A program made the position numbers and the translations under genes. A DNA stretch of 64,000 nt. Source: Candidatus Nanopelagicus limnes (lineage in GTDB: Bacteria; Actinomycetota; Actinomycetes; Nanopelagicales; Nanopelagicaceae). The notes under the pieces are model-generated. The model saw nothing but the letters and a program-made list of their open reading frames with translations. It was not told where the DNA came from and searched no databases. Each line of letters opens with the position of its first letter. Position 1 is the first letter of the stretch. The stretch is taken from contig NZ_CP016768.2 of assembly GCF_002287885.2 (NCBI RefSeq), positions 62,001-126,000 on the forward strand, written 5' to 3'. Positions 36,570 to 40,086 of the stretch are shown piece by piece.

Positions 36570-36697
36570 CAGATAGCAGCCTTAACCACTGGACATTTAG
36601 CCCCAGCAGACTCCCAGGATTTCGCTCTAGTTTAGGTAGGTAGCAAAGGCAACATTTACCTACTTTTAGTGTCTTACTAGGTAGAGGGGTCAAGACG

Positions 36698-38086
36698 TTG
36701 GCTCATCGAAAGCGGGAAATCAAAGTGTCACTTCGCAATAAGGCTCAGGCCCCAGCAACAGTTGCTGCGTGGTCTGTTTCTGATTTATCCGCTCTTTATA
36801 CCCAAAACCGCTCATCACTTATCGCTCAAGCCCGCCGAATTCTTCGAAGCGATGCTGATGCAGCAGAGGTAGTCCAAGATGCCTTCCTTAAATTTATCTT
36901 GGCAGCCCCAGAGCTAGATACCGCAGATCGTGCCATGGCATATCTGCGCACCACAGTTAACAATCTATGCCTAAACGTAATCCGTGCAACTGGATCTCGC
37001 CCCAACTTAGTTGCCCTTGATTCAGATACATCCCAAGAACGCCTTGCTGAGATCGCAGCAGAGAATCACATTCCAATGGATGCAACACTTGCCGCAGCAG
37101 AGGATGCATCAATAATTCGAGAAGCACTATCTCGACTTTCAGAAACTCAACGCACAGCCCTTGTTATGTGGGAAGTTGAAGGCCGTACCACTAAAGAGAT
37201 TGCAGCTGCAATTGGAACAAGTGAGAAAAATGTTCGCCATGTTGTTCAACGTGCCCGCGCATCATTTATTCGTGTTCTTACCGAGTGGGTCGTTGATGAG
37301 AAAACCGGCGCTACTGCTCTTGATTCTATTTCTGGTACATATAAGAAGGCAGCAGAGCTCGCTAAGAAATCATCAAAGGTTGCACTTTCATTACTTATCG
37401 TGATGGTCGCATTCCTTGGGTTTAACTCTGTAACTGGAAGTGAGTTTAATAATGGTTTGGTCGTTTCAACTCTAACTCAAGAGGCACCAGTTTCGACTCA
37501 ATCATCGACTCCATCTCCTACAGAAACAAACTTAGATCTTTCAAATCAAAAGATTATTGAAGATAATTCTGCGATTAACTTCCGCACATCGAAGTCATTA
37601 TTTGCTGGTCTTTCTAAGGATGGACTACCAACAGGGTTTACAGTTTCTGATGCGACTGGAAATGTTGGATCACTTTCTGTTTCATCTCAATCAACAATTA
37701 CTAACCCTGATGGTTATGTGCTTGTTTCATATGCACAATCCCAGGGTGAATCAGTGTTAAATATCTTGGTTTCCCAAACAATTACAGTTGATGGTGCAGG
37801 TACTTCATACTTCGCAAGCCCTTCTGTGACTGTTGCTGGCTCATGGTTTCCGCTGACCCAAACTGGCTCTGCCGCAACAATTACCCGCCTTTCTAACGGA
37901 AATTATCTTCTAACAGCCACCATATATATAGATTCAACGGTGGATTCAGCGCTATTTGTGGCTACTACTGGCGGGTTAGATGTCGATGCGATTCCAAATG
38001 AGATAAATACCCGTATAATTTTGAACTCTAGCAAGAGCTCAATCCTTGCCCAGGCGATCAATATTGGCGCCAAGGGGGTCAAATAA
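36698..38086 (+). CDS. ECF-type sigma factor fused to a membrane anchor and extracytoplasmic domain
   Basis: A 462-residue protein. Residues 28-97 are sigma region 2 (ILRSDADAAEVVQDAFLKF), 138-195 are region 4 (LSETQRTALVMWEVEGRTTKEIA... quoted in part), a helix at about 228-246 (VALSLLIVMVAFLGF) spans the membrane, and about 210 Ser/Thr-rich residues lie outside. No separate anti-sigma gene adjoins it. The start is TTG, eight bases after GAGGGG. The next gene encodes an S-layer-like protein, a probable target. Release or conformational signalling through the membrane helix is inferred. Confidence 0.82.
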   Translation: MAHRKREIKVSLRNKAQAPATVAAWSVSDLSALYTQNRSSLIAQARRILRSDADAAEVVQDAFLKFILAAPELDTADRAMAYLRTTVNNLCLNVIRATGSRPNLVALDSDTSQERLAEIAAENHIPMDATLAAAEDASIIREALSRLSETQRTALVMWEVEGRTTKEIAAAIGTSEKNVRHVVQRARASFIRVLTEWVVDEKTGATALDSISGTYKKAAELAKKSSKVALSLLIVMVAFLGFNSVTGSEFNNGLVVSTLTQEAPVSTQSSTPSPTETNLDLSNQKIIEDNSAINFRTSKSLFAGLSKDGLPTGFTVSDATGNVGSLSVSSQSTITNPDGYVLVSYAQSQGESVLNILVSQTITVDGAGTSYFASPSVTVAGSWFPLTQTGSAATITRLSNGNYLLTATIYIDSTVDSALFVATTGGLDVDAIPNEINTRIILNSSKSSILAQAINIGAKGVK

Positions 38087-38138
38087 ATGACACCTAAAAA
38101 ACAGGTTTCTCCTGCAATCCGGATATTGCGGGGGGAAA

Positions 38139-38167
38139 GAGATGCGTCAGCACGTGCGACTCATCTC
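38139..38167 (+). promoter_or_regulatory. Hairpin in the leader of the S-layer-like gene
   Basis: GAGATG-C-GTC pairs with GAC-T-CATCTC around AGCACGTGC, itself containing the palindrome GCACGTGC. It lies 49 bases before the chosen ATG in a leader of at least 129 bases, and could stabilise the mRNA or be a binding site. Confidence 0.5.
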
Positions 38168-38215
38168 GAAGCCGCTACTAGGAAATTCCTGGTAACGACT
38201 AACGAAAGGAAACAA

Positions 38216-40015
38216 ATGTCTACAAAGACAAACTTCAAGCGCATAGCGCTTGTTGCTGTTGCAGCGTTAGGAATGGGCGTACTTAGCTCAGTTCCTTCGC
38301 AAGCAGCGGTTTCTGCTGTAACTATTACAGCAGTAAATGGAACTTCAACAATTCAGACAGGTACTACTGGTGGAACCTCAGATACCAGAACTGCTGCAAC
38401 TGTTGATGTAGTTGCATTGGTTGGAGCTGGTGATTCTGTAACAGTTTCCGCTGTTGCAAAGTCAATTCCAACTGGAGCAACTCGAGTTGCACTTCTTGGT
38501 ATTGTTGAAACAAACACTGCAAGTGGTTACGCGAGAACTGATATCGATGACACCACAAAAATGGGTACTTCATTAACTCTTGCGGGTGCTTCCTATGCAA
38601 CCGACTCAGAGACTATTGCTTCTGCTGTTTACACAATGGCAGGCGGAGCAGCAGGCTATATTGGTACTAAGTTCTTCTTGCAACTTGAGTCTGGAACTGG
38701 AACGACAATAGCTGGAACTTACACTTACACTGTAACCGTTCAGTCAATTAGTTATCTCGCTGCAACTGCTACATATGCAGTTTCAACACAGACAACAGAT
38801 GTAAGTATTGTGGTTGCTGCTTTAGCTGCAGCAAGTAAAGTGGCTAGTGCAGTAAACTCTAGAGTTTATATTAACGATACTGCTGCAACTGAAGAAGATG
38901 AAAGTTTGTCATCTGTTGCAACAGCTTCTAACACTGCAGTTGGTTACTTGTATGTCTACTTAAAGAATGCAAGTGCTGGCGGAGCAGCTAGAGAGTCAGT
39001 AACTGTGACCACTAATATTGGCCAAGTTGGCGATGGTGCTTCAAACCGTGGACGAAGTGTTGTGCTTAAGTACAACAACGATTCAGGTGAAAGTTACCCA
39101 ATCTATGCAGACGGCACAACAGGTGTTGCAACATTTACCATTTCGACACCAAGCGTGGCTTTCGGAACCAAAACAATGTCATTCTATGCAGTAGCTGCAA
39201 AGACAATGACAGCAACAGTTGCCACTCCACTCCTTAAGGTTGGAACAAATTCTGATGCAGTTAGGGTTACAGCAGTCGATGCCAGCGGAATTGCATGGTC
39301 AGGAGCTGCATATATTTATGCTTCTTCAGCAGCTGATGCATTAATTGCTGGATCAGTTACACCTAGCTTGTGTACTTGGGATGCAGATGATGCACGCCAT
39401 GAGTGCACTATTTCAGGAGTTTCTGCTGGAACAGCTAAGTTCAAGATCATTGATGCTGCCACTGTAGCGCTAGCAACTGCAACTTCTAATGAAGTTTCTG
39501 TTGTTGTAAACGCAAACGCAGCTTCTACTGTGAAGCTATCATTTGATAAAGCATCTTATGCACCAAATGAGCGCGCACGAATCTATGTAACTCCTCTTGA
39601 TTCTGCAGGCAAGGAAATTGCCTCAAGCACATGGGCTAATTTGTTTGCTGCCGGTGGAATCTCGGTTAATGGAGCTGTTACATATCCTGCAGGACAGCCA
39701 GTTGATAGCCTTACAGCTGTATCAGTAACAACAGCTGGTAATGCCTCATCAACAACTGGAGCTAAGGCTGGATCTCTGGTATACACAGTGTTCATGCCAG
39801 CAGCTGGTGGATCAGTTACAATTTCAGCAACCGGTGGTACTTCACTACCACTTGCTGGACAAGTAGCCGTTACTGCAACTGCAACCGTTACTGATTCAGG
39901 AGCAGCTGCATTAGCAGCAGTAACTGCATTAGCAACCACTGTTGCATCTCTTAAGACTCTTATCACCACTTTAACTAATTTGGTGCTTAAGATTCAAAAG
40001 AAGGTAAAGGCTTAA
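38216..40015 (+). CDS. Secreted S-layer-like surface protein
   Basis: A 599-residue exported protein. The signal peptide (MSTKTNFKRIALVAVAALGM start, cleavage near SVPSQA-A) is followed by an Ala/Thr/Ser/Val-rich beta-type body with only two Cys (SLCTWDADDARHECTI) that may form a disulphide. It ends in an amphipathic helix (ASLKTLITTLTNLVLKIQKK, plus VKA) likely to be the attachment or oligomerisation segment. There is no LPxTG or membrane anchor. ATG at 38087 is in frame, but GAAAGGA precedes 38216 and the signal peptide starts there. The S-layer role is inferred from composition and context. Confidence 0.75.
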   Translation: MSTKTNFKRIALVAVAALGMGVLSSVPSQAAVSAVTITAVNGTSTIQTGTTGGTSDTRTAATVDVVALVGAGDSVTVSAVAKSIPTGATRVALLGIVETNTASGYARTDIDDTTKMGTSLTLAGASYATDSETIASAVYTMAGGAAGYIGTKFFLQLESGTGTTIAGTYTYTVTVQSISYLAATATYAVSTQTTDVSIVVAALAAASKVASAVNSRVYINDTAATEEDESLSSVATASNTAVGYLYVYLKNASAGGAARESVTVTTNIGQVGDGASNRGRSVVLKYNNDSGESYPIYADGTTGVATFTISTPSVAFGTKTMSFYAVAAKTMTATVATPLLKVGTNSDAVRVTAVDASGIAWSGAAYIYASSAADALIAGSVTPSLCTWDADDARHECTISGVSAGTAKFKIIDAATVALATATSNEVSVVVNANAASTVKLSFDKASYAPNERARIYVTPLDSAGKEIASSTWANLFAAGGISVNGAVTYPAGQPVDSLTAVSVTTAGNASSTTGAKAGSLVYTVFMPAAGGSVTISATGGTSLPLAGQVAVTATATVTDSGAAALAAVTALATTVASLKTLITTLTNLVLKIQKKVKA

Positions 40016-40035
40016 TTTCCGCCTAAACCAAGAGT

Positions 40036-40083
40036 AAATAAACGGGCCCAGTTTCCAGAAAAGGAAGTTGGGCCCGTTTATTT
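40036..40083 (+). terminator. Very strong terminator after the S-layer-like gene
   Basis: The arms (40036-40056 and 40063-40083) give 21 base pairs in RNA, 19 Watson-Crick and two G-U, around the six-base loop AGAAAA. The outer core is AAATAAACGGGCCCA against TGGGCCCGTTTATTT, so the RNA ends in a U-rich tail. The right arm finishes four bases before the TAGGCT promoter of the next gene. Confidence 0.9.
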
Positions 40084-40086
40084 CGG

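Follow-up and report, generated by a model that had tools for sequence, protein, structure and literature searches.

Organization of the locus

The window, a 64,000-nucleotide stretch of the Candidatus Nanopelagicus limnes genome (contig NZ_CP016768.2, positions 62,001 to 126,000), carries a cassette made up of an ECF-type promoter, a gene for a membrane-tethered sigma factor, a structured leader RNA, a gene for a secreted S-layer-like protein and an intrinsic terminator (Table 1). This layout bears out the original prediction of a 599-residue secreted product, whose N-terminus looks like a signal peptide on inspection, and of a 21-pair terminator, found here with 20–21 bp. Terminator-like hairpins also lie 3′ of the surface-protein genes of most relatives.

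The start of the sigma gene was revised. It had been placed at TTG 36698, giving 462 residues. Relatives of the protein share a conserved start, M-(A/S)-L/F-R/K, which in the window corresponds to GTG 36725, and TTG 36698 would fall within a conserved GACG-loop hairpin, on its 3′ arm. Because the relatives' starts are conserved and the hairpin would bury TTG 36698, GTG 36725 is the most likely start and the predicted protein has 453 residues. The hairpin shows two-sided changes in all 8 pairs, with a covariation score reached by none of 500 shuffles, and its stem lies about 10 nt downstream of the −10 element in most loci, in both sigma clades (A and B, see below) alike. It is absent or different in a few loci, e.g. 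L065, L069, L072, L108, L110 and L115.

Table 1. Features of the cassette in window coordinates; residue numbers count from TTG 36698 (462-residue numbering) for the sigma protein.
Feature	Position	Strand	Remarks
Candidate ECF-type promoter, CAACATTT-N11-GTGTCTTA	36650..36676	+	Single copy in genome
GACG-loop hairpin, predicted 5′ end of sigma transcript	36684..36707	+	Covariation, 8/8 pairs
Membrane-tethered ECF sigma factor	36725..38086	+	GTG start, 453 aa (TTG 36698 start: 462 aa)
Sigma region 2	36794..36994	+	Residues 33-99; Sigma70_r2, Pfam
Sigma region 4	37112..37261	+	Residues 139-188; Sigma70_r4_2, Pfam
Juxtamembrane segment	37262..37378	+	Residues 189-227
Transmembrane helix	37379..37435	+	Residues 228-246
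Extracytoplasmic all-beta domain	37592..38074	+	Predicted structure, most residues pLDDT >90
In-frame extension of surface-protein gene through leader	38087..38215	+	Frame open in 39/54 loci
Structured leader RNA, model R1	38103..38201	+	99.5 bits
Leader helix P1, loop UCCGGA	38107..38136	+	Covariation, fold
Leader helix P2, GCACGUGC loop region	38139..38167	+	Covariation, fold
Leader helix P4 (AAGCC-stem-GACU)	38170..38200	+	Also upstream of unlinked surface-protein paralogues
Ribosome-binding site GAAAGGA	38204..38210	+	Before conserved ATG 38216; unpaired in predicted fold
Secreted S-layer-like protein, 599 aa	38216..40015	+	Ig-like beta domains, C-terminal helix 561-598
Strong intrinsic terminator	40036..40084	+	20-21 bp

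A sigma factor joined to a membrane helix and an outside domain

The proposal that a single protein carries sigma regions 2 and 4 was confirmed by Pfam matches above the curated cut-offs (Sigma70_r2, 44.4 bits; Sigma70_r4_2, 47.7 bits), while Pfam matches to sigma region 3 reached an E-value of 0.25 at best. The protein scores 79.1 against TIGR02937 (sigma-70 ECF), whose cut-off is 42.9, and the best-scoring specific NCBIfam models all stay under their own cut-offs. A single strong hydrophobic peak was found at residues 228-246, where the membrane helix had been predicted, with a Kyte-Doolittle mean of 2.18 against 1.32 for the runner-up in the protein. Lysine-rich residues precede the helix and none follow it, suggesting that the C-terminus faces outward.

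Cysteine and histidine are absent from residues 182-228, between region 4 and the helix, so that this segment holds no zinc anti-sigma motif. No zinc-finger Pfam domain matched the protein, and no FecR-like anti-sigma extension appeared in Pfam or among the best 25 NCBIfam families. The claim that no anti-sigma gene lies nearby also held for the flanking genes tested in the window (glycan genes and a Sua5 gene, with a tRNA-Lys in between), none of which has an anti-sigma domain. At the end of region 4, the silent sites of codons 172-201 (37211-37300) are conserved at 0.51, the gene average being about 0.38.

The search of the outside part for known domains gave a divided result: a domain is confidently predicted, and no known relative of it was found. 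Structure prediction gives an all-beta ectodomain with pLDDT above 90 across most of residues 299-459, and the domain is confidently folded in most sigma relatives. It matched nothing among Pfam and PDB sequences and had no clear match among PDB folds, the best (AbyU, VIA Z 5.0) lying below the level that the tool treats as meaningful. A sensor built like the coat that it might read was considered and rejected, as the ectodomain has no similarity to the surface-protein profile.

Elsewhere in the class, a single-sequence scan of a 297-genome sample found sigma matches in only five genomes, all of one other family. Four of the five proteins extend further, with a hydrophobic segment followed by a long C-terminal part; the three complete tethered ones have 544-595 residues.

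It is conceivable that the tether is no sensor, and that a constitutive sigma factor sits at the membrane to keep transcription of a secreted protein near the secretion machinery. Short sigma proteins of 318-337 residues in L095, L096 and L098 (G157, G001 and G006, respectively), which keep the membrane helix and lack the beta domain, would fit such an arrangement. It is nonetheless unlikely: a confidently folded beta domain is retained in most relatives, the tethered layout recurs in the other family, and the juxtamembrane and membrane segments (conservation 0.81 and 0.83, against 0.81 in sigma region 4) are too conserved for a mere anchor.

Occurrence and pairing of the two genes

At E ≤ 1e-20, 93 of 296 Nanopelagicaceae genomes have a relative of the sigma protein, as do 59 of the 108 good ones. 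Sixty loci were retrieved, and in all of the roughly 55 informative ones, where the contig continues past the sigma gene, the downstream neighbour encodes a secreted, S-layer-like protein of the Ig-repeat family. Per genome, both genes were found in 76 cases, one alone in 17 and 15, and neither in 188, an odds ratio of 56 in which counts from relatives of shared ancestry are not independent events; for sigma gene and leader RNA the ratio is 158. Many of the genomes are drafts with contig breaks in the cassette region, and in several genomes with only one of the two genes that gene lies at a contig end. The genes on the other side of the cassette vary among relatives, and the sigma/surface-protein pairing is constant. 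The predicted two-gene order is thus kept in every informative locus, and also in the other family, where both loci with downstream sequence (L306 and L309) have a secreted protein next; the sigma protein of L309 is short and has no membrane helix.

Carriers of the cassette include Ca. Planktophila versatilis, P. lacus, IMCC26103, IMCC25003, IMCC19121, IMCC26077 and LanE43. In L092 (G237:C24:9243-13972), two complete sigma/leader/surface-protein cassettes stand in tandem. Several public metagenome bins of the freshwater clade (L207, L210, L230, L247, L256 and L260) bear the title 'Bifidobacterium breve' or 'Streptomyces griseus'. No earlier account of this gene pair in Nanopelagicales was found in the literature searched, which lies mostly outside subscription journals.

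The surface protein family is divergent, with per-column identity averaging 25%, and is built from Ig-like domains and a C-terminal helix. Sequence matches include the intimin-like FdeC (1.7e-8) and the S-layer protein SbsC (0.002, with high composition bias), and fold matches include invasin, EA1, SbsC and Sap, all with low TM-scores; Pfam gave no match for the window's protein. An S-layer protein had been predicted, of which the secreted tandem Ig-like domains stand; no SLH or other known wall anchor was found in the window's protein, and SLH is present in 0 of 38 family members. The similarity of its Ig-repeat folds to S-layer proteins makes 'S-layer-like' a fair description.

A single, clade-matched promoter

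The motif CAACATTT-N11-GTGTCT lies upstream of the sigma gene in 30 of 30 clade-A loci, one of which has a single variant base. It has an AAC-N17-GTC arrangement, resembling ECF promoters. The exact form CAACATTT-N11-GTGTCTT occurs in 30 of 36 clade-A genomes, as a single copy in 29 and always upstream of the sigma gene; one further clade-A genome has a second, odd-spaced match, and a reversed-pattern control gave 2 matches in total. In the window's genome no other site was found within 2 mismatches, and the next best, with 3, is at control level; looser sites may also exist elsewhere. Clade-B loci carry ACA-N13..15-CGTAG with TGTCCGTTTTGTCC upstream, found once per genome, near the sigma gene, in 21 of 31 genomes. 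In clade-B loci such as L083 and L091, TGTCCGTTTTGTCC lies just 5′ of the −35 element, single per genome, and is a candidate operator for another regulator.

A branch of the sigma tree with 100/100 support divides the loci 30:30, exactly by promoter type; the second half consists of 27 clade-B loci and 3 with a slightly different upstream element that have kept the CGTAG promoter. G234 holds one cassette of each clade. The match fits a promoter changing along with its own sigma factor, though it is not proof, because the parts are linked and inheritance as a block could by itself produce it. Since the promoter is both unique and clade-matched, the tethered sigma factor is likely to regulate its own operon.

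A sigma factor that instead regulates genes elsewhere, next to a surface protein with housekeeping expression of its own and a neighbour merely through a shared surface-gene island, would account for the glycan genes around the cassette and for the unlinked, P4-bearing surface-protein paralogues that have no adjacent sigma gene. This was judged improbable: the genome has no second good promoter site, the pairing holds in every informative locus despite differing genes on the other side, and the surface-protein gene would be left with neither intergenic space nor a conserved internal promoter. A second promoter within the end of the sigma gene found no support in silent-site conservation, as the silent sites there are among the least conserved, leaving no conserved internal promoter visible.

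A structured and partly open leader

The structured leader of the original prediction was upheld by its fold in the window (z −5.2; 0 of 200 shuffles as good) and by covariation across relatives. The alignment has three consensus helices with 33 pairs and a variable fourth hairpin, the loops of the three covarying helices being nearly fixed. Base pairing is kept in 98.1% of cells, against 78.3 in shuffles, with 150 compensatory cells against 45; 22 of the 33 pairs are compensated, every shuffle scoring lower, and the signal was lost when pair partners were slid. The many G-U pairs place the RNA on the forward strand. No Rfam model matched at its gathering score, and low-scoring Rfam matches in the window (a plastid 3′ UTR model on the terminator, and others) were dismissed as chance or generic hairpins. 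Judged by covariation and fold, the leader counts as a structured RNA that is new and unrepresented in Rfam.

The R1 model found the element in 86 of 296 genomes; its strong matches either follow the sigma gene immediately or lie at contig ends, and the loci of the other family gave nothing above noise. Helices P1 and P2 were seen only after a sigma gene, or at contig ends where the assembly stops short of it. Because the weak matches, upstream of other surface-protein paralogues, consist of P4 and a short hairpin only, P4 looks like a general leader of the surface-protein family, with P1 and P2 apparently belonging to the sigma junction. The paralogues L072:1058, L149:5344, L153, L156, L158, L160:12881 and L161 have this 3′ module only, P4 with a CTCATGACATATGAG hairpin, followed by the same GAAAGGAAA ribosome-binding site as in the cassette. 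The three loci with short sigma proteins have a rearranged leader, in which an ACGU-loop hairpin is nested within P1.

The leader could itself be what chiefly regulates the surface protein, acting without the sigma factor as an attenuator or as a riboswitch that binds a ligand or protein. Its three covarying helices with nearly fixed loops and the sharing of P4 with unlinked paralogues are compatible with this role, which is rather doubtful all the same: the predicted fold leaves the ribosome-binding site free, no terminator-like alternative fold was seen, P1 and P2 are confined to the sigma junction or contig ends, and the conserved reading frame suggests that ribosomes traverse the element.

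That frame, the surface protein's own, runs through the leader without a stop in 39 of 54 loci; the other two frames do so in 5 and 7. Among 37 open leaders, with lengths from 97 to 160, 35 have a distance of 1 mod 3 to the ATG, and candidate starts of a long form overlap the sigma stop codon as ATGA, TAATG or TAAATG. The open frame, length changes that are mostly multiples of three and starts overlapping the sigma stop codon (ATGA, TAATG) would all be expected if the surface protein began there and the apparent RNA were an N-terminal extension. Such a purely coding origin is nevertheless very improbable, since the base pairs change in compensatory fashion, one subclade of genus g40 has lost the frame, and a near-invariant GAAAGGAAA-N3-ATG start, kept throughout relatives, stands immediately before the signal-peptide-like region. 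Loss of the frame in the g40 subclade also indicates that leader translation is not essential to the cassette. The pattern suggests that translation of the two genes is coupled across a structured leader and that the short form is the main surface product.

A self-driven operon as the proposed mechanism

From the observed architecture, pairing, promoter conservation and uniqueness, RNA structure and frame conservation, we infer a self-driven operon, considered reasonably probable, in which a membrane sensor sigma factor is its own activator and the surface protein its output. The sigma factor would reside in the membrane, where its outside beta domain would sample the envelope or the surface coat. 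A change there would be relayed by the highly conserved juxtamembrane and membrane segments, and the sigma domains would be freed or activated, most likely via intramembrane proteolysis. The genome encodes a site-2-type protease, which lends this step weak support because all 14 of 14 control genomes also have site-2 proteases. Freed sigma would drive its own promoter, the sole copy in the genome, so that the operon would amplify itself, and one transcript would carry both genes. The leader would then set the yield of surface protein relative to sigma, either shielding the 3′ part of the mRNA, tying translation of that part to sigma translation, or both. Only tentatively, the cassette may represent a new regulatory class, in which an anchored sigma factor whose whole regulon is its own operon reads the state of the coat encoded there, with a structured, partly translated RNA between the genes as a second layer.

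The acI/Nanopelagicales are tiny and among the most abundant freshwater bacteria, and their genomes of about 1.2–1.5 Mb have kept little regulation. The full cassette persists in over half of the good genomes, so control of the surface protein appears to matter to its host, perhaps because the surface is where phages and grazers act. The cassette offers a single-protein envelope sensor for biochemistry together with a structured RNA new to Rfam. Cultured strains carry it as well, among them LanE-43, and lytic phages of LanE-43 have been isolated (PMC10202952), which makes a link between coat control and phages testable.

Comparison with known systems

The surface protein resembles the Ig-domain S-layer proteins SbsC, EA1 and Sap in its secreted tandem Ig-like beta domains, with weak sequence and fold matches; unlike them, it has no known wall anchor, and invasin-type adhesins match it equally well. 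Like the sigma protein, IutY (ECF243) of Pseudomonas putida combines sigma factor and membrane regulator in one protein, and its activation via stepwise proteolysis has been demonstrated (PMC8999054). IutY serves iron-starvation cell-surface signalling and has a fused anti-sigma part, whereas the Nanopelagicus protein has no FecR-type match. ECF48 and ECF53 are, likewise in Actinobacteria, sigma factors fused to a C-terminal transmembrane part (PMC8999054); they are described with zinc-finger extensions, in contrast to the Nanopelagicus stretch from region 4 to the membrane without Cys or His.

ECF52, represented by Streptomyces SCO4117 (PMC5826349, PMC8999054), is also an actinobacterial ECF sigma factor with a C-terminal membrane helix and an extracytoplasmic region. 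For this group proteolytic release has been proposed and positive autoregulation suggested (PMC5826349, PMC8999054), and activation of the gene's own expression was seen in a strain whose truncated SCO4117 had neither tether nor outside parts (PMC5826349). ECF52 has a zinc-finger anti-sigma segment, and since this feature is absent the Nanopelagicus protein is not a member of the group. ECF52 proteins have a carbohydrate-binding domain that follows a proline-rich stretch; for the Nanopelagicus beta domain, Pfam and PDB sequences gave no match and the fold search no clear one. The Nanopelagicus cassette differs from ECF52 in turn by its dedicated surface-protein neighbour, its structured leader RNA and its one promoter site per genome. 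ECF52 and its actinobacterial neighbours are the closest known kind, and the Nanopelagicus sigma factor probably works in a similar way.
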